64,000 nt of DNA, taken from NCBI GenBank assembly GCA_018817385.1, contig JAHIUA010000024.1, positions 62,001 to 126,000 on the forward strand. Direction: 5' to 3'. A program made the position numbers and the translations under genes. Below the pieces are notes generated by a model. That model was not told the origin of the DNA, did no database searches, and worked only from the letters and a program-made list of their open reading frames with translations. Position 1 is the first letter of the stretch, and every line of letters begins with the position of its first letter. This document shows, piece by piece, positions 13,290-23,005 of the stretch. The DNA comes from Pseudomonadota bacterium (GTDB lineage Bacteria > Desulfobacterota > Desulfobulbia > Desulfobulbales > Desulfocapsaceae).

Positions 13290-13441
13290 AACTTACCCAA
13301 CATCACGCCAGCGTGATGTTCTGTTGTTATCGGTCCATTCTTCAGGAGGTTGATCAGAAATTCTCTTGTATGACATCTGTGTGTGAGATGCCACAGTTGT
13401 CCCGGAGTATCATGCCTCTTTGCTCTGGCAAGAGGCTCCAT
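13286..13441 (-). pseudogene. Truncated RAYT transposase N-terminus leading into mgtA
   Basis: A 51-codon frame from ATG 13441. Residues 5-30 (ARAKRHDTPGQLWHLTHRCH...) match the N-terminus of the intact RAYT (PRANRHYIPGCVWHITHRCH). It then diverges and ends in TGA, which overlaps the mgtA ATG (ATGA). The frame is open further upstream to 13651, but that part is unrelated to transposase. It is a relic of a more distant RAYT subtype; read as a leader it could couple translation into mgtA. Confidence 0.55.
13299..13320. promoter_or_regulatory. Perfect palindrome in the mgtA leader
   Basis: AACATCACGC and GCGTGATGTT form a 10-bp perfect inverted repeat with a 2-base centre, nine bases upstream of the mgtA start codon on the minus strand. 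In RNA it would fold next to the ribosome site (GGGTAAG); as DNA it could be an operator. Which role, if any, cannot be told from sequence. Confidence 0.5.
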
Positions 13442-13759
13442 TGTTTGCAGAATTGCAATATTCTCTTTATTGCCTTTGGAAAAGCCATGATAGACGGAAA
13501 AGGACTGTAAGTAAGTGCGGTTGTGCGGATCTCTCGGACAGGCTCCTGGGGCGTTAGCGTGGCTCGATTCCGTTTCGATTAATTGTAATACCTGCATGGT
13601 CGGCAAGAGTGCAACAAAGGCACTGATGCACCTACTGGCAGGCGTTGTCATTTCAACAATGATTACGTTGCCAGGGTCGGTGCCATGGGAATATTTTCCA
13701 TCAACTGAGTCTATCGTGATTTTGATCGTATGAAACGGGATGGAAGACTTTATGGCTCC
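13442..13759. other. Intergenic region upstream of the RAYT/mgtA leader
   Basis: No gene is supported. The motif CTCGGACAGGCTCCTGGG at 13534-13551 matches the right end of the MITE-like elements at 2527, 23265 and 56921, without a recognisable left end. A 72-codon frame at 13515-13733 lacks support. Confidence 0.45.
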
Positions 13760-14515
13760 TTAAATCATGAAATTGCCGCCAGTTACAGGAATATATTGAC
13801 CCGTCAAGTAGTCTGATAACGAAGAGGCTAGAAAAACAGCAACAGCAGCAACATCATCTGGTATACCAATGCGTCTGAGCGGAGTAAAGGCTGCTATCTG
13901 TTCGTGCATTTCTGCCGGTTGTCCGGCTGTAGCATCCGTTTTCACTAGACCCGGGCCGATCACGTTGACTGTAATTCCCTCAGGTCCAAGTTCCGTTGCC
14001 ATTACTTTTGCCATGCTGTCCACCGCCGATTTAGCTGCAGCGTGAGCTGAAAAACCATACGCCGGTTGCCGGGAAAGACTGCTGCTGATAAATATCAATT
14101 TGCCGGTCTTTCGTTGAGTCATGTCACGCAGAACAGCTTGTGAGCAGTTGTAGAGGGCCTGTATCTCACCGGTTATTTTCGCATGGATTTCTTCCCAGGT
14201 GAGGGCAATAAATGGTTTGATTGGGAAATCAATGTTGGCATTGTTTACCAGGACATCAATTTTTCCAAAGGTTTTGATAGCAGTTTCAACCATGGTATTC
14301 ACTGCAACAGCATCCCGAACATCAGCTTTGAAGATTATACCATCACCACCGTTTTCCTTTACCTGGGCTAACACAGCTTCGGCTTTTTCCCGGTTGTTGT
14401 GATAATTGATGATCACCGTTGCGCCATGCGAGCCAATGGTTTTCGCTATCGCTGCTCCTATTCCTCTGCTTGCGCCCGTAACAATAACTACTTTACCATT
14501 AATATCAGTTTTCAT
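13760..14515 (-). CDS. FabG-like SDR oxidoreductase with His at the catalytic Tyr position
   Basis: A 251-aa classical short-chain dehydrogenase. The cofactor motif TGASRGIG (about 14-21), NNAN (91-94) in place of NNAG, and the catalytic-region Ser145 and Lys162 are present, but the residue four before the Lys, where Tyr is expected, is His158 (FSAHAAAKSAV). The C-terminus has the usual GP.LVKTDAT and SLSDYLTGQYIPVTGG. It most resembles 3-oxoacyl-ACP reductase/glucose dehydrogenase-type enzymes, NADPH being likely given the Arg after the Ser in the Gly motif. With Tyr lost it could be inactive, use His, or belong to a subfamily with this change. There is no obvious operon partner. Confidence 0.85.
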   Translation of the reverse strand: MKTDINGKVVIVTGASRGIGAAIAKTIGSHGATVIINYHNNREKAEAVLAQVKENGGDGIIFKADVRDAVAVNTMVETAIKTFGKIDVLVNNANIDFPIKPFIALTWEEIHAKITGEIQALYNCSQAVLRDMTQRKTGKLIFISSSLSRQPAYGFSAHAAAKSAVDSMAKVMATELGPEGITVNVIGPGLVKTDATAGQPAEMHEQIAAFTPLRRIGIPDDVAAVAVFLASSLSDYLTGQYIPVTGGNFMI

Positions 14516-14583
14516 AACTGTCCTCTTCTCTTTGTCTTGTTTGCGGCTATGCGAGGCTATGTGAATAGCAGCATATTGCCTCG

Positions 14584-14835
14584 TCAGTTGCTGATGTGCT
14601 TCTCACCCTCATGATCGGTTATGATTTCTTGTCTCTCTCGTTTGTACCGATCGTATGAAGGAGCCTCCTTGTCCGGTTGTGGAAGTTCATCCGCGCGCTT
14701 CATTTCCTGGACCTGTTGGGAACTCTCATATATGCCTCGAAAAAAGTTGTTATGGGATTTTTCGTTTTCGGCACAAGAGCAAATGCTCCATATCAAAAAT
14801 ATCATAATTACTGAAAACCTTAATGTTAATTTCAA
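14584..14835 (-). CDS. Small putative lipoprotein, unknown function
   Basis: An 83-aa protein starting at TTG 14835, five bases after AGGAGG; this strong site sets the start inside a longer open frame. Residues 1-20 are a signal peptide ending in a lipobox-like ICSC, so the mature protein would begin at the second Cys. The mature part (ENEKSHNNFFRGIYESSQQ...) is charged, with many Glu, Lys and Arg, and probably helical. I recognise no family. It lies 68 bp upstream of the SDR gene in the same orientation and could be transcribed with it. Confidence 0.55.
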   Translation of the reverse strand: MKLTLRFSVIMIFLIWSICSCAENEKSHNNFFRGIYESSQQVQEMKRADELPQPDKEAPSYDRYKRERQEIITDHEGEKHISN

Positions 14836-14923
14836 AATTTCCTCCTGAATAACCAACTTATTATTCGTCCAATTCGTCGACCAACAAATTCGGGGTATAC
14901 TCAATTACTCAATTCGTTCAATT

Positions 14924-15889
14924 CGGGTCGGACCAAGGCAACTGCTTGGATTTCATGAGATATTGGATATAAAAAAGGTGTTATCTTGGCTTTAAAGGCC
15001 TTTTTTGCCGGTGAAAAGAGTGCTGTAAGGAGACCTGGGCTCTTTCAAGATCGTGGTGTCCTGATCATTGGAGGCTATTGAACGGCCGACCCCTTTCCCT
15101 CCAAGCCTCTTGTGTATATCTTGGATATACCGTTCATTGCCAACAGCAACAGACTTGCTCCAAGGGGGATTTTGTCGGCATGTCTTGTTTTTCAGTTCAG
15201 TTTCAACCCATTCCCAATGATCCCTGCGTAGACAATTCTCATCTTTCACAGCACAGAGTCTCCTGAGCGATACTCTATCAATGATCGAGTACCGCTTTGG
15301 TGGATTCTGAATGTCATTGTATCCACCTACACAATATTCAAATGGATGTTGAACCACTCGGCCCGAACCATGTTGAGGTCGCTAAAGACCAGACATTTTG
15401 CCAGGTATCCTTCTGTCTGGACAGCAGTGGCGTGGTGTCGGTCTTTCCAGAATGCACCTTTCCGCTTTTTGCGTGCATTGAACTCCTGAGCCGTTCGTCC
15501 TGCTTATCAACTTATCAACTGGAGGTTCTTGGAAATGATCTCCTCGCCTGTATCAACAACAAGTAAATGAATATGGTTGGAGGTACTTATTTAATTGAGA
15601 AGACAAAGACCATACTTCTTCCTGGCCTGATATAACCAGTGCCGCCAGCGCTTTTTGTCTTTGGCGAATTTCAAAAGAAATTCCTGCTGATGACGCTTAT
15701 GAGTAATGTGCCAGACGCAGTCTGGGATATAATGTCTGTTTGCCCGTGGCATTTAGAAGAAATCTCTTAGAAGCCCCTTTTTTAGCTCAAAAATGGGCTT
15801 CTAAAGGCTGAAAGCACTTCTTTTTGAAGGGTATTAAACATGAAATTAGTATGTTGGCTTGGTCGACTTGGTCGACTTGGTCCGACCCC
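14924..15889 (-). mobile_element. RAYT element copy with both ends, transposase decayed
   Basis: The left end CGGGTCGGACCAAG (14924-14937) and right end CTTGGTCCGACCCC (15876-15889) are inverted copies of each other and match the ends of the intact element at 19065-20002. In between lie the leader hairpin (CTTAGAAGCCCC...GGGCTTCTAAAG, about 15762-15810) and a disrupted transposase. Next to the right end the motif GGTCGACTTG is tandemly repeated, possibly from slippage. Confidence 0.8.
14992..15752 (-). pseudogene. RAYT (Y1_Tnp-type) transposase pseudogene
   Basis: Aligned to the intact 263-aa transposase, this copy keeps the ATG (15752) but has a stop after the codons for GLCLLN (near 15592), a 9-bp duplication (TTATCAACT, near 15510) and a one-base deletion near 15359 that shifts the frame. 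From there the C-terminal part is open again, ending in GKKGL and a stop about 13 residues earlier than in the intact copy. The HUH motif SNHIH survives in sequence but is out of reach of translation. Confidence 0.85.
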
Positions 15890-15954
15890 TTGTTTGCGTG
15901 TTTGGGGTAAGGGGGGTTCGACAAAAGACGATGCTTTCGACAAATATGTTATTG

Positions 15955-17211
15955 TCATGCAAGTATTCTGCCTTTTTCTTCATCTACCAGTAAAAGCAGG
16001 CATCCACCGCTGATAAAAAGAAAAATAATGGCCAGTAGTGATAAGCGGGGACTGCCGGTGAGAACACTGATCCCGCCCATGAGAAGAGGGCCGATGACTG
16101 CGGCAAATTTACCCAGCATATTATAAAAACCAAAAAATTCAGCGGCCCTGTCAGGAGGGATAATCCGGCTGTAAAGAGACCTGCTTAAAGATTGCACACC
16201 TCCCTGTACCAGGCCAATTGCCACAGCCATCATATAGAATTCGGCAATTGTATCCATGAACATTGCCCAGACTGTTACGAGTAGGTAGATGCCGATGCCC
16301 AGCAGGATTGCCTTTTTGGTTCCCATTTTTTCGCCCAATCTGCCAAAAAGAAGAGCTGCAGGGAAACCGACAAATTGGGTGATGAGGAGGGCAAGAATCA
16401 GGTTGTTTGAGTCAAATCCCAAGGCCATGCCATAATCAACCGCCATGCGGACAATGGTATCTAACCCGTCAATATAAAGCCAGTAGGCAATAAGAAACTG
16501 AAAAACTATCTTGTGTTTACGGATTTCCCTGAAGGTTTTTTTTAGTTGCCTCAGTCCGGCCCCAATTGAATCTTTTCCTTTTTCGATGGCTGATGAACAA
16601 GGTTCATTGACCCAGAAAAAAAGGGGCAGGGAAAAAACAAACCACCAGCAGGCAACGGTTAAAAAAGAAATTCTGACAGCCTGACCTGCATCAGCAAGAC
16701 CAAAGAGCCATGGTTTCAAAGTTGTCAGTACATTAAAAGCAAAGAGGATTCCTCCTCCAAGGTATCCGAGGCTGAAACCGAGAGAGGAAATTATGTCTCT
16801 TTGATCCGGTGGCGCAACGGAAAGCATCAGGGAATCATAGAAAATATTTCCCCCGGAAAAACCGATAATGCCGAATACATAAAGCAAGGCGGCCAGGAAC
16901 CAGTTCCCCTGGGAGACAAAAAAAAGAGACGCGCTTGCCGTGACGCCAAGAAGCGTGAAGGAAAAAAGAAATTTCTTCTTTGCGTAGGCCTGATCTGCAA
17001 TAGCACCGAGCAGGGGGGCAAGCAAAATAACACTCAAACTGCCAATGGAATTTGCCATACCAAGACGCAGTGTGCTGGTGGAAACATCGACACCGGCACA
17101 CCAGTATTGTTTGAAGAAAATCGGGAAAAACCCTGCCATTACAGTTGTGGCAAAGGCTGAATTGGCCCAGTCATAAAAGGCCCAGGAGATGGTTTTTTTA
17201 TCAAAGCGCAT
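15955..17211 (-). CDS. UMF1/Atg22-type MFS transporter
   Basis: A 418-aa membrane protein with about twelve helices. The N-terminus SWAFYDWANSAFATTVMA is the hallmark of the UMF1 (Atg22-like) branch of the major facilitator superfamily, followed by the loop LLGAIADQAYAKKKFL and later GGVQSLSRSLYSRIIPP, also typical. Substrate is unknown; yeast Atg22 exports vacuolar amino acids and bacterial members are uncharacterised. The ATG at 17211 follows a T-rich stretch without a strong ribosome site. The intergenic space upstream, before the gdpD-type gene, holds heptamer repeats. Confidence 0.88.
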   Translation of the reverse strand: MRFDKKTISWAFYDWANSAFATTVMAGFFPIFFKQYWCAGVDVSTSTLRLGMANSIGSLSVILLAPLLGAIADQAYAKKKFLFSFTLLGVTASASLFFVSQGNWFLAALLYVFGIIGFSGGNIFYDSLMLSVAPPDQRDIISSLGFSLGYLGGGILFAFNVLTTLKPWLFGLADAGQAVRISFLTVACWWFVFSLPLFFWVNEPCSSAIEKGKDSIGAGLRQLKKTFREIRKHKIVFQFLIAYWLYIDGLDTIVRMAVDYGMALGFDSNNLILALLITQFVGFPAALLFGRLGEKMGTKKAILLGIGIYLLVTVWAMFMDTIAEFYMMAVAIGLVQGGVQSLSRSLYSRIIPPDRAAEFFGFYNMLGKFAAVIGPLLMGGISVLTGSPRLSLLAIIFLFISGGCLLLLVDEEKGRILA

Positions 17212-17225
17212 GTTTTTTAATTGAA

Positions 17226-17350
17226 AGTTTGGAGTCTTCGATGTCTCACGAACTCGCTTGTCGGAGTGTGGAGTTTAGAGTTAAGGAAGGTTTCTATTAA
17301 AAACAGATAAGGACCATAACTCCGCACGCTACACTGCAAACTCCAAACTT
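17226..17350. repeat. Degenerate heptamer repeats in inverted arrangement
   Basis: AAAGTTTGGAG (17226-17236) and CTCCAAACTTT (17340-17350) are exact inverted copies. Inside, units such as GGAGTGT, GGAGTTT and AGAGTTA follow one another on one side and AACTCCG, AACTCCA and AACTTTT lie on the other with 7-base spacing. The RNA would fold into a long imperfect hairpin between the two minus-strand genes. It shares the 7-base periodicity of the arrays at 40848, 45727 and 62673. Confidence 0.6.
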
Positions 17351-17353
17351 TTT

Positions 17354-18142
17354 TTATTCTCTCTGAAGGAGGCGAGATTTATTCTGCAGTTTCTCTATCA
17401 TTATCCCCGGAAAATCACTAACAATACCTTGCACATGCCCCTTGATGGCCTTGTCGAGTTCAGCTTCGTTGTTGACTGTGTAGACGCCTGTGAAAATATC
17501 ATGTTTTTGTATGTCGGCTGCCATTTCTTCTGTGAGCTGATTGAGAGAAAGGACTACAACCTCGCAGTTTACTGCAGCTTTGATCTCAGAAACCAGGCGT
17601 TCATCTCCTGGAATTATCACTGCTGCAGTGTAAAATTTTTCCTTAAGTGACTGAAGATAACGCAGGGATTGATGGTGAAAAGAGGAAAAAAGTGTGAATG
17701 GTGCAAAGCCTGCTTCAAGTGTTGTTGATGCAATGAGGTCAATTCTCTTACGATAATTCTCATGGGGAGAAGGAGGTTTTATCTCGATATTGATGCAGGC
17801 TTTTCCTTTCAATATTGCAAAGACATCACTGAGAAGGGGAATTCGTTCTCCACTGAATTTTAGGGAAAACCAGGAACCAGCGTCGAGTTTATGAAGATCG
17901 GCGTATGAGAATCTGCCGGTTTCTCCTGTGCCATTTGTTGTTCTTTCCAGGGTGGGGTCATGAAAGACGATTATCTCCTGGTCTGCAGTGAGTTGTACGT
18001 CTATTTCAATCATTGATACGCCGGCCTCGAGAGCCTGGCTGATAGCAGTGAGAGTATTTTCCGGTGCAGTGCCTGATGATCCTCGGTGTGCAACGACTAC
18101 CTGCTTTTCGCTTGATTGAACAAGATCATAAAGTGACTCCAT
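17354..18142 (-). CDS. Glycerophosphodiester phosphodiesterase (GDPD/UgpQ type)
   Basis: A 262-aa protein of the GDPD family. The catalytic pattern is present: VAHRGSSG with His19-Arg20, PENTLTAI, EIDVQLTAD with the metal-binding Glu/Asp, VFHDPTLERTTNG with the second His, and IEIKPPSPHE. It has no signal peptide, so it is a cytoplasmic UgpQ-like enzyme that splits glycerophosphodiesters from phospholipid turnover into glycerol-3-phosphate and an alcohol. Length is normal for this class. It lies downstream of a decayed lipase-like hydrolase gene on the same strand, which could once have supplied related substrates. Confidence 0.92.
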   Translation of the reverse strand: MESLYDLVQSSEKQVVVAHRGSSGTAPENTLTAISQALEAGVSMIEIDVQLTADQEIIVFHDPTLERTTNGTGETGRFSYADLHKLDAGSWFSLKFSGERIPLLSDVFAILKGKACINIEIKPPSPHENYRKRIDLIASTTLEAGFAPFTLFSSFHHQSLRYLQSLKEKFYTAAVIIPGDERLVSEIKAAVNCEVVVLSLNQLTEEMAADIQKHDIFTGVYTVNNEAELDKAIKGHVQGIVSDFPGIMIEKLQNKSRLLQRE

Positions 18143-18189
18143 TGTGTCTCCTGAGGAAAAAATTATAAATGAAGAAGAAAGTTTTCTAA

Positions 18190-18600
18190 ACCTCTTATTT
18201 ATCTGTTTCCTGTGATCAGAAAGTCGCTGTTGTGGTCACCGTTTATCTGCAGAAAAGTTTTTGGTTCCTATGCAGCTTCAAAAAGATTGAGGCCATGACT
18301 GAAAGGAATAATGTTGTCATCTGGGCTGTGGACAATGAGGAGTGGAGAGTTGATTTTCTGCAGGGCTGTATAGGAGTATCGTAATGGAAGCGGCACAGCA
18401 TATGGGTCGGGAAAAAGGGTATAAGGCCTGAAGCCATATCTTTTGCAGAAGTGAATGTCGATTCAAGAATACATGCCTTTGGCTTATCATGGGCGGCAAG
18501 CCATACGGCAACTGCTCCGCCAAGGGAGCGGCCAAAGAGGATAATATCTGATGGAGGGATTTGCTTTATGTCCATGAGATAAGGTGATAAGGATTCGCTT
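18190..18600 (-). pseudogene. Alpha/beta hydrolase (BEM46-like) pseudogene
   Basis: The readable part PPSDIILFGRSLGGAVAVWL holds the nucleophile elbow GRSLGG of lysophospholipase-like hydrolases, followed by ACILESTF. After YDTPIQ the frame is lost: the expected segment (LQKINSPLLIVHSPDDNIIP) lies in another frame, and that frame meets a TAG near 18270. The first half of the protein is missing; a frame at 18566-18805 starting with a hydrophobic helix may be its detached N-terminus. The gene is broken by truncation and at least one frameshift. Confidence 0.8.
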
Positions 18601-19011
18601 TACAGGGAAAAAGTACAGCCGTCAAAAAGAGGCGTTTTCCCCTCCCAACCAGTACGGAATAAAGTCTGGATTGTTCCTTGAGGACTACCGTTAGCCACCT
18701 CCCACCGACAACAGTCTCGGCAGCAAGAACCAAAAAGTCACAACCCACTCCAATTCCAACTAAAATCAGTAAGAATAGGCTACAATACAACCACCAATAC
18801 AGCAAGTTAAAAAGACGGCCCCTGCGGAGCCTTTGGTATCACACGACTTCTTACAGTTACACCCACTTGCTCTTTATCTGCAGTACTGGCCACAGACAAC
18901 TCCTTTGGGCTGAAAATCGCTAGCAATCACCTTTGTAAGTTGGTTCTTCATCGCCTGGCCAGCAGTCATCAACTTGCTCATAGCAACTCTCCTGTTTCGC
19001 AAGCACAGATG
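18601..19011. other. Stretch left of the intact RAYT element
   Basis: Contains the possible detached N-terminus of the hydrolase pseudogene (18566-18805, minus) and a 35-codon minus-strand frame (ATG 18981 to 18874; MSKLMTAGQAMKNQLTKVIA...) preceded by AGGAG seven bases upstream. That short frame ends in Cys residues and could be a small peptide gene or a broken N-terminus; I do not recognise it. Confidence 0.35.
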
Positions 19012-19075
19012 CGGGGGGCGGGGTCGCAGGGGTTGTGGGGTCGGGGTGGGGGTCGGGGTGGGTCGGGGTCGGACC
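19012..19075 (+). repeat. G-run tract next to the RAYT left end
   Basis: At least eight runs of three or more G within about 60 bases (GGGGGGCGGGG, GGTCGGGG repeated), ending inside the RAYT terminal motif GGGGTCGGACCAAG. The unit GGGGTCGG is repeated imperfectly and looks like an expansion of the element end. The plus strand could form G-quadruplexes. Confidence 0.75.
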
Positions 19076-19093
19076 AAGGCAACAGCTTGGATT

Positions 19094-19885
19094 TCAAGAG
19101 ATATTGGATATAAAAAAGGCATTATCTTGGCTTAAAAGGCCTTTTTTGCCGGTGAAAAGAGTGCTGTAAGGAGGCCTGGGCTCTTTCAAGGCGATGGTGT
19201 CCTTATTATCAGAGACCATTGAACGGCCGACCCCTCTCCCTCCAAGCCTCTTGTGTATATCTTGGATATAGCGTTCACTGCCAACAGCAACAGCCTCACT
19301 CCAAAGGGGATTTCGTCGGCATGCCTTGTTTTTCAGCTCAGTTTCAACCCATTCCCCATGTTCCTTGCGTAGACAATTCTCATCTTTCACAGCACAGAGT
19401 TTCCTGAGCGATATCCTGTCAATGATCGAGTACCGCTTTGGTGGATGCTGAATTTCATTATATCCAGCTACACAATATTCAGATGGATGTTGAACCATTC
19501 CGGCCCGAACCATGTTGAGGTCGATATAGACCAGACATTTTGCCAGGTGTCCTTCTATCTGGACAGCTGTGGCATGGTACCGGTCTTCCCAGAATGCACC
19601 TTTCCGCTTTTTGCGTGCATTGAACTCCTGTGCCGTTCGTCCTGCTATCAACTGGAGGCTTTTGGAAATGATCTCCTCGCCGGTATCAACAACAAGTAAA
19701 TGAATATGGTTGGAGGTAACTGTGTAATTGAGGACACAAAGACCATACCTCTTCCTGGCCTGATATAACCAGTGCCGCCAGCGCTTTTTGTCTTTGTCGA
19801 ATTTCAAAAGGAATTCTCGCTTATGACACCTATGAGTAATGTGCCAGACGCAGCCTGGGATATAATGTCTGTTTGCTCGTGGCAT
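19094..19885 (-). CDS. REP-associated tyrosine transposase (Y1_Tnp/HUH superfamily)
   Basis: A 263-aa protein with the IS200-like/RAYT fold. The N-terminus MPRANRHYIPGCVWHITHRCH is typical of RAYTs; the HUH motif is SNHIHLLV (His60, His62), followed by RTAQEFNARKKRKGAFWEDRYH and the conserved helix LVYIDLNMVRAGMV with a Tyr soon after (SEY), the likely nucleophile. The family cuts and joins single-stranded DNA at REP palindromes. The C-terminal 90 residues are less conserved. It is the only uninterrupted copy in the window; three others with coding sequence are clearly broken. The start ATG at 19885 has no strong ribosome site. Confidence 0.93.
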   Translation of the reverse strand: MPRANRHYIPGCVWHITHRCHKREFLLKFDKDKKRWRHWLYQARKRYGLCVLNYTVTSNHIHLLVVDTGEEIISKSLQLIAGRTAQEFNARKKRKGAFWEDRYHATAVQIEGHLAKCLVYIDLNMVRAGMVQHPSEYCVAGYNEIQHPPKRYSIIDRISLRKLCAVKDENCLRKEHGEWVETELKNKACRRNPLWSEAVAVGSERYIQDIHKRLGGRGVGRSMVSDNKDTIALKEPRPPYSTLFTGKKGLLSQDNAFFISNIS

Positions 19886-19896
19886 AGGTAAAATTT

Positions 19897-19936
19897 CTTA
19901 GAAGTCCCTTTTTCAGCTCAAAAAGGGGCTTCTAAG
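19897..19936. repeat. Leader hairpin of the RAYT element
   Basis: CTTAGAAGTCCCTTTTT and AAAAAGGGGCTTCTAAG pair over about 17 positions with one mismatch and a 6-base loop, just upstream of the transposase start. The same hairpin recurs with changes at about 15762 and 9350, so it is a fixed part of the element, perhaps the REP-like recognition structure or a brake on read-through transcription. Confidence 0.7.
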
Positions 19937-20064
19937 GGCTGAAAGCACTTCTTTTAGAAGAATAATTCCCATAAACTTAGTGTGTTGACTTGGTCCGACC
20001 CCGTGTTTGGCCGTGTTTGTACCCCGTGTTTGTGTACCGTGTTTTGGTGTACCGTGTTTTGGTG

Positions 20065-20113
20065 TTTTAGAAGAATAATTCCCATAAACTTAGTGTGTTG
20101 ACTTGGTCCGACC
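20065..20113 (+). repeat. Direct duplicate of the RAYT right end
   Basis: Bases 20065-20113 repeat 19952-20000 almost exactly (TTTTAGAAGAATAATTCCCA ... TTGACTTGGTCCGACC). The two copies are 113 bp apart, separated by short repeats of a CCGTGTTT type. A second right end therefore lies outside the intact element. Confidence 0.85.
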
Positions 20114-20213
20114 TCGTGTTGCGTGTGGTTGAACGACCTGTGTTGAAGAATCATAGAGCTCAGGACGCCTCATTAAGAAAAAAACAGGTCAAAACGGGAA
20201 TGGCTGTTTTAAT

Positions 20214-20852
20214 CTATTCTTCTTCATTTTTAATTTTGTCTCTTAAAAGAGAGTGTTCTTCGAAAATCTGTTTCTCTAGACTGAAGGTCTTCTCGCCAAT
20301 TTTTCTTCGAACCAATTTTTGAAAAAAAAGATTGTTGGGGATTTGTGTATCAATAACGTTACCTTCAGTAGAGGATCTGAGTGTGGTAAACATCAAATTT
20401 ATATTTCGTACTACTCCACTAATTCCAGTTGTCATAGCAGGATCGACAATTTCTACTTCATCACCTACCTTGAATGGTTGAAATATTAATAACATAAATG
20501 TGCATAGAATATTACTTAGCACACTCCAAACGGCTACAAATCCTATAGCGACCATTGCAACCACTGCAGATATTACTGTCCAGATGCTGGCGATTGAAAG
20601 CCCAAGCTGCTGAAGAATTAGTAAGAATAAAAAAATAGTAATAAGCCATTTAGATATATTGTTGAGGAACTGAGCGATAGTAGGCGAAATGAATTGTTTT
20701 GATGCAAGAAAATTTGTAGCTTTATTGTTTATTTTTAACAAAAAGCCAGAAATAACAAGAATTATAATTATGATAATAATTTTATGACTGGCTGTTATCC
20801 AAAATTCAGGTCGTGACAGTAGTGTTATAAAATCAGGATTCAATTTTTCCAT
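20214..20852 (-). CDS. Short MscS-like mechanosensitive channel protein
   Basis: A 212-aa protein with three N-terminal hydrophobic helices (about 23-42, 68-88, 92-122), the last being the pore-helix equivalent, then FQPFKVGDEVEIV, the start of the MscS beta domain. The large C-terminal alpha/beta domain is missing; after the beta domain it ends in a charged tail (KIKNEEE). Short forms of this kind exist in other genomes, so it need not be broken. Base composition is clearly more AT-rich than in the flanking core genes, suggesting a foreign origin. It is flanked by RAYT debris on one side and a group II intron piece on the other. Confidence 0.8.
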   Translation of the reverse strand: MEKLNPDFITLLSRPEFWITASHKIIIIIIILVISGFLLKINNKATNFLASKQFISPTIAQFLNNISKWLITIFLFLLILQQLGLSIASIWTVISAVVAMVAIGFVAVWSVLSNILCTFMLLIFQPFKVGDEVEIVDPAMTTGISGVVRNINLMFTTLRSSTEGNVIDTQIPNNLFFQKLVRRKIGEKTFSLEKQIFEEHSLLRDKIKNEEE

Positions 20853-20974
20853 TTGTAGATAAATCCAAGTTTAATTGTAATATTAAGAGCGATTAACGTC
20901 CTTTTTCACCTGCTGACGGTTGAATGACATCTCAACCCAATGCGTAGCAAAATGTTTACATCACACTGAAGATC

Positions 20975-21182
20975 GCGCGTATGAGCCAGTTAGCGTGTAA
21001 ATTTTTGTGTATGCCTGGCATGGGCGTGAACTTATGGGGTTAAAGTTCTCTGTAAGTGTTCCTGTTTTAGGATGTTAACCTAGCATAAATTACTAGCCGA
21101 ATGCAAGGGCGTTACCGCGAGGTAGGGTCTGAAGGAAGCCGGAGCGCAAACTTGTGAGCTGACGAACAGAAACGTCATATAA
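20975..21182 (+). mobile_element. Truncated group II intron (5' domain I portion)
   Basis: The order of motifs GCCTGGCATGGGCGTGAAC, then CCGAATGCAAGGGCG, GGTAGGGTCTGAAGGAAGCC, and CTGACGAACAGAAAC followed by CATATAAGGC is that of domain I of bacterial group II introns. A GTGTATG near 21007 or GCGCGTATG near 20975 could be the 5' end. The intron stops abruptly where RAYT-derived sequence begins at about 21183; the reverse transcriptase gene and domains V-VI are absent. Recognition is from memory of intron consensus sequences, not from a covariance search. Confidence 0.6.
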
Positions 21183-21685
21183 GGCCGACCCCTCTTCCAC
21201 CCAGCCTCTTGTGTATATCTTGGATAAGCATTCACTGCCAATAGCAACGCCCCACTTCAAAGGGGATTTTGTCGCATGTCTTATTTTTCAGTTCAGTTTC
21301 AACCCATTCCCAATAATCCCTGCGTAGATAATGCTCATCTTTCACAGCACAGAGTTTCCTGAGCGATACTCTGTCAATGATCGAGTACCGTTTCGGTGGA
21401 TTCTGAATTTCATTATATCCACCTACACAATATTCAGATGGATGTTGAACCATTCCGGCTCGAACCATGTTGAGCTCGATATAGACCAGACATTTTGCCA
21501 GGTGTCTTTCTGTCTGGACAGCATTGGCGTGGTACCGGTCTTCCCAGAATGCACGTTTCCGCTTTTTACGTGCGTTGAACTCCTGAGCCGTTCGTCTTGC
21601 TATCAACTGGAGGTTTTTGGAAATGATCTCCTCGCCGGTATCAACAACAAGCAAATGAATATGGTTGGAGGTCACTATGTAATTG
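21183..21685 (-). pseudogene. RAYT transposase pseudogene, both ends lost
   Basis: The middle of the transposase is readable (YIVTSNHIHLLVVDTGEEI through LVYIELNMVRAGMVQHPSEY to KNKTCDKIPFEV), including the HUH motif. Upstream of that the normal N-terminal 50 residues are replaced by unrelated sequence with repeated GGACCCCG-type units (21700-21750). Near the C-terminus small indels break the frame around 21232-21270, and the copy ends at 21183 against the intron fragment. Confidence 0.85.
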
Positions 21686-21905
21686 GGTTTACACGGCTTA
21701 CCCCGATCTTCCCCCGGACCCCGCCGACTCGACCCCGGACCCCGATGTGTTAATACCATATTGGCCTGGTCTGAGTCCGTATTTCCTCTCTTTTTACTGA
21801 CAAATATATTTTGCCAGCAGTAAAAAGGGAGGAAATGTATTTGCCAGGGAGATGCAAATGTGTTTAATATCATAAGCATAATCTCATAATAATAGGGAGG
21901 TAGGG
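21686..21905. other. Spacer between the RAYT relic and the DUF1566-protein gene
   Basis: Begins with a C-rich stretch of repeated CGGACCCCG-like units, then a TTGGCCTGGTCTGAGTCCG motif that resembles the degraded RAYT right end near 9440. GGGAGGTAGGG just before ATG 21906 is a strong ribosome site for the next gene. Confidence 0.5.
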
Positions 21906-22598
21906 ATGAAAACAAAACTGATTTGTATCTGTTCGACTTTACTATGCTTTAGCTCTTTCTCGTATGCGCAAAATCAAGTGGTGGTTATCCCTCTTGGAGG
22001 GATAACTACACCTTCAACACCCGCCCCGGTAGCAAAAACAGGACAACAGATTTCTTATGTAGTTGGAGATGACGGCTCTCTTCAAAAAGGCATTGCTTTG
22101 CCTTCTCCTCGTTTTACTAATAACAATAATGGAACAGTAACAGATAACCTCACTGGCTTAATTTGGCTTACTAATGCAAATTGTATTCAAACAGATAACG
22201 CTGCTTTTGATAATGATATCATAGTGGGTGATGGAAGAGTTACTTGGGCACATGCCCTTGATTTTATAGCGGGGGTAAATGCCGGCACGTATAGTTGTGG
22301 TGATACAAGCAACGGTGGCGCAAATCAAATAGACTGGCGTTTACCCAACAGGTTTGAAATGGAAAGTCTTTTTCATTTAAATTTTTTCAACCCCATGCTT
22401 TCAAACGCTGCAGGTACAGCTCAGTGGTCAAATGGTGACGTGTTTACAGGGGTTGCTACTTCAAATTTTTACTGGTCGTCAACAACCACTCCAGGATCTA
22501 CCAGTGACGCTTTTGCCTTAGATTTTTGGATTGGCGATGTTACATCAAGATCCAAAACAACTGGTTATTTCGTATGGCCTGTTAGAGGTGAGCAATAA
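21906..22598 (+). CDS. Secreted DUF1566 (Lcl C-terminal-like) domain protein
   Basis: A 230-aa protein. Residues 1-21 are a signal peptide (KLICICSTLLCFSSFSYA, cut before QNQ). The mature part has the DUF1566/Lcl_C pattern: RFTNNNNGTVTDNLTGLIW (about 69-87), WRLPNRFEMESLF, YWSSTTTPGS, and the end GYFVWPVRG. In Legionella Lcl this domain takes part in surface attachment; in most bacteria the role is unknown, with a predicted place outside the cell or in the periplasm. Paired Cys (about 98 and 132) could form a disulphide. The strong GGGAGG ribosome site sets the start. A fragment of its 3' end is found at 9473-9555. Confidence 0.87.
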   Translation: MKTKLICICSTLLCFSSFSYAQNQVVVIPLGGITTPSTPAPVAKTGQQISYVVGDDGSLQKGIALPSPRFTNNNNGTVTDNLTGLIWLTNANCIQTDNAAFDNDIIVGDGRVTWAHALDFIAGVNAGTYSCGDTSNGGANQIDWRLPNRFEMESLFHLNFFNPMLSNAAGTAQWSNGDVFTGVATSNFYWSSTTTPGSTSDAFALDFWIGDVTSRSKTTGYFVWPVRGEQ

Positions 22599-22746
22599 AC
22601 GCTTGCTATCATCCCAAGGTAAACTTGAGACCCCGATGCTGAGAAATAAAAACTGCAAAAAGGGACATCTGTGCTCAGTAAAAAAGGACATCTGGAGGAA
22701 AACGGTGATCTCCTGTCTGTTCTCACCACTTCCGCCGTTTCTCTAA
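22599..22746. other. Spacer after the DUF1566-protein gene
   Basis: Contains two copies of GGACATCTG about 25 bases apart (near 22663 and 22687). No gene is supported. The first 40 bases are shared with the relic at 9473-9555. Confidence 0.4.
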
Positions 22747-23005
22747 TTCGTAATTGCGGGTCGGATCAAGGCAACAGCTTGGATTTTAAGAGATATGGGA
22801 TATAATTTAAGAGATATGGGATATAAAAAAGGCATTATTTTGGCTTAAAAGGCCTTTTTGACCGGTGAAAAGAGTGCTGTAAGGAGGCCTGGGCTCTTTC
22901 AAGGCCGTGGTGTCCTTATTATTAGAGACCCTTGAACGGCCGAGTCCTCTCCCTCCAAGCCTCTTGTGTATATCTTGGATATAGCGTTCACTGCCAATAG
23001 CAACA
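22747..23005 (-). mobile_element. RAYT element remnant (transposase 3' end and left end)
   Basis: Starts with the element end GCGGGTCGGATCAAGGCAAC and runs through a duplicated AGAGATATGGGATATAA unit and the TAAAAGGCC hairpin into codons for the transposase C-terminus (GSERYIQDIHKRLGGRGLG ... PPYSTLFTGQKGLL, minus strand). It breaks off at about 23005, where the repeat shared with 8968 begins. The rest of the transposase is missing. Confidence 0.82.

Follow-up and report, generated by a model that had tools for sequence, protein, structure and literature searches.

An intact element of an already described transposase family was found in a stretch of 64,000 nt (the window) from a 5.38-Mb genome in 105 contigs. 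Comparison with its relatives pointed to a hidden boundary, situated about 8 nt beyond the visible motif of each end, and revealed tandem duplications of the flank that tend to start at the same place. The simplest account would be a cut near -8 followed by extension and rejoining of the end, and unequal strand exchange is close behind. The family itself is known; what appears to be new is the end anatomy and the phased flank duplication, neither of which was found in the openly licensed literature searched, preprints not included.

The element and its copies

The intact element covers 19065-20002, and its ends are exact 14-bp inverted copies of each other. The end sequence GGGGTCGGACCAAG is exact at 19065-19078 (+), 19989-20002 (-) and 15876-15889 (-), and has one mismatch at 14924-14937 (+). 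This site search bore out the sequence-only reading, which had described exact inverted ends and a further copy (14924-15889) with one change. With up to two mismatches the window holds six sites, as compared to a mean of 0.41 and a largest count of 4 in 100 dinucleotide shuffles; the fifth (20102-20115, -) is a duplicated right end and the sixth (22757-22770, +) is the left end of a truncated copy. Between the ends lies the gene of an intact TIRYT transposase of 263 aa (19094-19885, -) with H60-I-H62 (HUH) and Y120, so the proposal of a unit defined by its ends and carrying its own transposase also stood.

The end motif GGTCGGACC (0 to +8) is located at 19067-19075 (+) on the left side and at 19992-20000 (-) on the right. 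The 8 nt outside it, both stretches at inferred positions, are TGGGTCGG on the left (19059-19066, +), with the predicted cut at the outer edge, and AAACACGG, as read on the minus strand, on the right (20001-20008, -). Further in, a 41-nt CTTA..TAAG inverted repeat begins at +64 of each end, at 19131-19171 (+), where it overlaps the 3' end of the gene, and at 19896-19936 (-). The left flank (19012-19066, no strand assigned) is a G-rich repeated sequence, GGGGTCGGGGTG-like. The right flank (20008-20120, no strand assigned) is an array of AAACACGG-type units followed further out by another copy of the end (about 20065-20120), which repeats -7 to +49.

Several other copies are found in the neighbourhood. 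The broken older copy (14918-15895, -) has both ends, with motifs at 14926-14934 and 15879-15887, and the flanking 8 nt, and there are CAATTCG-type repeats to its left. An internal fragment of a transposase copy (21118-21693, -) has 73% identity over residues 50-241, and no end motif was found at this fragment. A truncated copy (22759-23004, +) consists of a left end (GGTCGGATC) and a C-terminal gene fragment, and an N-terminal scrap of a diverged copy is located at 13337-13432 (-). The copies are thus clustered within about 10 kb (13337-23004), as they also are in three other genomes, G035, G036 and G046 (L058, L060, L061), and the clustering suggests local movement.

In the whole host genome GGTCGGACCAAG occurs 10 times, and the same pattern read backwards once. 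The sites outside the window are a degenerate copy at the start of contig C18, a solo end on C29, two ends on C82, which are a tandemly duplicated end, and a site on C23 that looks like chance. A search for short non-coding units with two ends, which the sequence-only reading had called for, was successful in some relatives, where at least six units too short for the gene were seen (163-244 bp), and gave none among the 10 motif sites of the host genome.

The transposase and its relatives

The gene between the ends encodes a Y1 transposase (PF01797, E 5.6e-12). Y1_Tnp is matched by all 12 aligned relatives, and H60, H62 and Y120 are invariant in the 12 aligned sequences. The scores for the NCBIfam families REP_Tyr_transpos (65.5 bits) and transpos_IS200 (29.3 bits) are below the family cut-offs of 80 and 55. 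When the PDB was searched by sequence there was no match at E 0.01. The predicted structure has a mean pLDDT of 70.6, with residues 239-263 below 50, and its best fold match is TnpA_REP of E. coli, 4er8 (E 3e-6; TM 0.60 by target length and 0.40 by query length). The C-terminal region has additional helices and strands in the predicted model, and no match to a helix-turn-helix family. There was no match in PADLOC; 13 plasmid records matched, each with less than 60% identity, and a single partial match was found on viral contigs.

RAYT-like genes with terminal inverted repeats were named TIRtrons or TIRYTs in 2013 (Di Nocera et al., PMC3733652), and in 2018 TIRYTs were tentatively equated with subclass 2.1 (Quentin et al., PMC6006769), for which a C-terminal helix-turn-helix extension is described (PMC6006769). 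Y1 elements bounded by terminal inverted repeats are therefore of a known kind, and the element is a member of the TIRYT/TIRtron branch of the RAYT (HUH/Y1) transposases. It has in common with this branch a RAYT-like Y1 gene between terminal inverted repeats at a fixed distance, an additional C-terminal region, and families of short repeats with the same ends. The motif GGGGWSAS is described in the repeat of most, not all, TIRYT/TIRtron members, and the motif found here, GGGGTCGG, is one base off. The hidden 8-nt boundary, the inverted repeat at +64 and the phased flank duplications were not among the features found in the accessible portions of the published descriptions.

The HUH/Y1 fold and the match to REP_Tyr_transpos, although below cut-off, are shared with RAYT proteins such as TnpA_REP (4er8). 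Unlike these, the element lacks a GTAG-type REP, its protein of 263 aa has the additional C-terminal region, and the tyrosine motif is Y-IDL-NM. This motif, YIDLNM within residues 120-129 (19485-19530, -), differs from the Y---NP given for class 2 proteins in PMC6006769. With the IS200/IS605 elements (IS608, ISDra2) the element shares structural matches, the lack of a target-site duplication and, presumably, the Y1 chemistry. It differs from them in that the ends are inverted and conserved in sequence, in that the inner repeat is 64 nt from the motif, and in the lack of conserved bases at the inferred cut.

Within the taxonomic family of the host, some match was found in 70 of 93 genomes, and among the matches listed at least 13 other genomes have at least 50% identity over at least 180 residues. 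Of the 566 relatives found in genome contigs, 80 loci were taken, and these 80 belong to Desulfobacterota, Gammaproteobacteria, Planctomycetes (Scalindua), Nitrospirota, Zetaproteobacteria and others. We used 73 of them, leaving out four duplicates (L082, L087, L099, L113) and three loci at or near a contig edge (L097, L119, L133); with 19 genes from the window and further genomes this gave 92 genes. The motif GG[TG]CNG[AG]CC is present, with at most one mismatch, at 176 of the 184 gene ends, and is exact at 147 of these, while at the remaining 8 it is beyond one mismatch or too close to an edge. Among 395 genomes of the phylum, 55 have the motif plus inner bases, in up to 31 copies. GGGGACAGACCACGTTT was found in 2 of 297 genomes.

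Some of the places occupied by the relatives may be mentioned. At L169 (about 1440-1490) an element end follows GTCGCCCCCCGTGCGGGGGCGTGGATTGAAAC, as though inserted in a spacer; from its appearance this is presumably a CRISPR repeat. In L174, L175 and L176 several ends are situated directly behind the TAG that closes the neighbouring reading frame, for instance GTCGACTAG and GAATTCTAG.

Anatomy of the ends

Each end consists of the motif GGTCNGACC and about 15 more partly conserved inner nucleotides. The degenerate consensus over 265 ends is YGGGGTCGGACCAAGNYAAC, of which the 14 bp are the visible part, and the consensus of the 265 distinct ends across the motif edge reads YGG followed by GGTCGGACCAAGNYAAC. 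In the flank, no position between -4 and -13 exceeds 0.11 bit. A subterminal inverted repeat is present inside each end. CTTA is found at exactly +64 in 159 of the 265 ends, with 10 ends at +63, 13 at +65 and fewer than 8 at any other offset between 0 and 129, and TAAG is found at +100 in 115 ends. Together they bound the 41-nt inverted repeat, which has inner TTTT/AAAA blocks. The support for pairing beyond these blocks is modest, 293 double changes as compared to 228 in 300 shuffles (sd 17, largest 271), and when the inner stretches of the window element were folded as DNA the z-scores were -1.93 for the right end and -1.11 for the left. The inverted repeat could form a hairpin or represent a pair of protein sites in inverted orientation.

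The sequence-only reading had taken the ends as a possible pair of facing REP units, which would make the element a BIME-like unit with its own RAYT. The RAYT-type protein, with TnpA_REP 4er8 as its best fold match, and the short two-ended units of the relatives speak for this idea. However, no REP tetranucleotide has a fixed position across the 265 ends: GTAG, GTGG and GGAG are found at any one offset in at most 16 of them, and GTAG in at most 4. CTAC/CCAC/CTCC at +7, in 45 ends, is part of the motif itself. Furthermore, GGTCGGACC alone folds weakly as DNA (-2.5 and -0.5 kcal/mol), the ends do not follow the rule of a tetranucleotide plus a hairpin, and the genome has only 10 motif sites. We find facing REPs highly improbable.

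The hidden boundary was deduced from recent copies within the same genome, where in several cases the identity extends about 8 nt past the motif and then ends. In G035 three right ends have TGGTATGG in common, in G036 the flank common to the two copies is GAGAGTGG at one end and CTTTCCAG at the other, and in G006 two copies agree in GACAACGG on one side and over 6 nt on the opposite one. In 28 independent pairs with an inner identity of at least 0.85, the agreement is 98/140 over positions -4 to -8 as compared to 78/224 over -9 to -16, and it drops from 18/28 at -8 to 8/28 at -9. The common flank is 7-10 nt long in 13 of the pairs and shorter than 7 nt in 15. As judged from these alignments, the real terminus seems to be situated about 8 nt outside the motif, without any demand on the sequence, and the bases seem to be replaceable too. 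In two loci of other TIRYT groups, L048 and L052, the two ends of the element share 7-8 more nucleotides outside the core (ATAATTG and GGACAATA), which would fit homogenised terminal stretches. Coupling sequences of Tn916-type elements are a case where a few bases of the old flank move with the element; the enzyme is unrelated, and the likeness is one of behaviour only.

Phased tandem duplications of the flank

The sequence-only reading had not mentioned tandem repeats outside the ends. Exact repeats of 7 nt or more that reach the boundary were found at 77 of 265 ends, as compared to 29 of 991 controls, which were pseudo-boundaries 250-490 nt outside the same ends; 188 ends had no detected array. 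In 46 of the 77 cases the start is at -7 to -9, and the right edge is variable. Since the 7-nt minimum biases short repeats toward starts near -8, the long repeats are more telling. Of 14 repeats that reach at least +10, with right edges from +10 to +49, 10 begin at -7 to -9. In a stricter set, where at least the GGT of the element is included (n=30), 14 start at -7 to -9, 8 at -11 to -14 and 8 at -3 to -6, and the start at -7 to -9 is a tendency and not an absolute rule. The data sets for the motif count, the phased repeats, the long repeats and the same-genome pairs share ends and are not independent.

A long case was observed in the host genome, where C82 has a 558-bp tandem duplication which starts at -7 (GACCTCG before the boundary, GGTCGG after it) and ends near +542; its junction contains 8 nt of filler that resemble the motif. 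The repeat units are degenerate copies and differ from site to site. Repeats adjoin both ends in 12 out of 84 elements, a single end in 32, and no end in 40. Target-site duplications were not found above the level of shuffled pairs in the 84 elements; 6-mers common to both flanks were present in 17 elements in the same orientation (14.7 in shuffled pairs) and in 12 as direct repeats (15.2). A DDE insertion sequence was rejected, as the target-site duplication lengths are those of shuffled pairs, and the absence of a target-site duplication fits a single-strand Y1 pathway.

It is conceivable that the arrays were there before the element, through a preference for inserting into existing short tandem repeats, or that they are errors of assembly. 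Phased repeats were present at 45 of 117 ends in MAG loci as compared to 7 of 42 in one-contig genomes, and at 3 of 24 ends in named isolates (Fisher p 0.04 against the control). Part of the arrays may thus be misassembled, and misassembly or sampling bias may inflate the MAG figure. The effect nevertheless persists, although weaker, in the one-contig genomes, which are above the control (Fisher p 4e-4), and the degenerate unit copies are unlike the product of read collapse or duplication. A target preference is contradicted by the units themselves, which contain element bases up to +49; this is impossible for repeats that were there before, so neither prior repeats nor target preference explain the arrays. 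Nor do the two ends of an element share units more than shuffled pairs do. Both explanations appear improbable to us.

Probable array growth after insertion, and arrays in a second group

Two species, G423 (one contig) and G276 (110 contigs), have 88-99.5% identity around shared ends, and it was possible to compare the arrays at orthologous positions. Of 11 such ends, 7 have an indel (3, 5, 7, 10, 12, 16 and 33 nt), in each case no further than about 30 nt from the edge of the motif; the other displayed columns are gapless. One end has three GCAATCC units in G276 and one in G423, and another has an additional flank-plus-motif unit in G276. These two G276 arrays are near draft contig ends, which would suit an assembly error, and the other five indel ends are not.

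No clean empty site was found between G423 and G276. Two candidates were rejected: at L173 5261-5501 the place is taken by about 50 nt of unrelated sequence, and L246 has a different 0.9-kb difference. The same loci contain interspersed repeats of about 100 nt (L173:5531-5631, G423) and about 175 nt (L246:1687-1862, G276), each with about 45-55 matches in the sister genome.

A second TIRYT group has ends that read GGGGACAG and then ATTTAT or ACCACG, adjoining transposases 26-37% identical to that of the window (L046, L047, L052, L055, L056, L057). Here phased repeats were found at 17 of 47 ends as compared to 6 of 121 controls, starting at -5 to -10 from the first G. The set includes 30 + 2 loci known here from their ends, and it is A-rich outside the motif, which makes several of the weaker repeats doubtful; the clear ones are L308, L317, L329 and L330.

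Origin of the duplications

As read from these sequences, the transposase may nick about 8 nt outside the motif, after which the 3'-OH would be extended and the flap rejoined by the enzyme. TnpA, bound to the inner signals, would cleave a single strand some 8 nt outward from GGTC and be little selective about the bases there; the flank would then end in a 3'-OH, and the element would carry a 5'-phosphotyrosine. In an aborted transposition the 3'-OH would be extended by strand displacement over a variable distance, and TnpA would join the displaced 5' end to it, giving one tandem copy of the stretch from -8 to x; repeated rounds would build the arrays. If both ends were cut, the element would move in single-stranded form, bordered on either side by about 8 nt from its former site. 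Cleavage by HUH enzymes gives a 3'-OH, which in Rep proteins and relaxases is able to prime replication (PMC8266576), and by analogy the HUH chemistry would allow a nick, extension and rejoining. The start of the long repeats lies at the edge of the flank that travels along. Against this model count the scattered starts in the stricter set, the 15 of 28 pairs that share less than 7 nt, the 188 ends with no detected array, the lower frequencies in named isolates and one-contig genomes, the motif-like filler on C82 and the failure to find a clean empty site. We consider it possible, just short of an even chance.

The duplications could also arise independently of the enzyme, by slippage or template switching, if a polymerase stalls at the end or at a bound protein, falls back and recopies the flank. 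The filler at the C82 junction could then be copied from the motif, and its likeness to the motif suits template switching; the starts are partly variable, and some arrays have short junction homologies. The long units, however, mostly have a fixed start and a free stop, which is the opposite of what a fixed obstacle would give (fixed stop, free restart), and the start falls where the carried flank has its edge. This explanation seems doubtful to us. A further possibility is that TnpA cuts near -8 and that an unequal exchange follows between two strands, for example sister strands at a fork, without nick-primed synthesis. It would give the same fixed start and easily explain the 558-bp unit, and cleavage and strand transfer are reported for relatives (PMC8266576). 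The right edges, on the other hand, have no common site, and a second specific cut is not apparent; we judge the exchange to be unlikely.

Implications

Returning to the nick, extension and rejoining, it may be proposed, tentatively and at somewhat less than an even chance, that TIRYT transposases in general are machines of this kind, which would cut at a fixed distance, reseal after limited synthesis, and turn any neighbour into a phased tandem repeat. If this is true, bacterial minisatellites and 0.5-kb duplications would arise regularly as by-products of these enzymes, in several phyla and in two TIRYT groups or more, and the elements would take along some 8 nt of their old flank when they change sites. 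It would also mean an enzyme-linked source of short tandem repeats and an explanation to the fuzzy boundaries of the elements. The finding bears on the movement of the RAYT relatives and on the origin of REP-like repeats and short tandem arrays in bacteria, and both questions would become testable in a widespread family whose cut position can be read, which carries flank along and in which phased duplication is ongoing.
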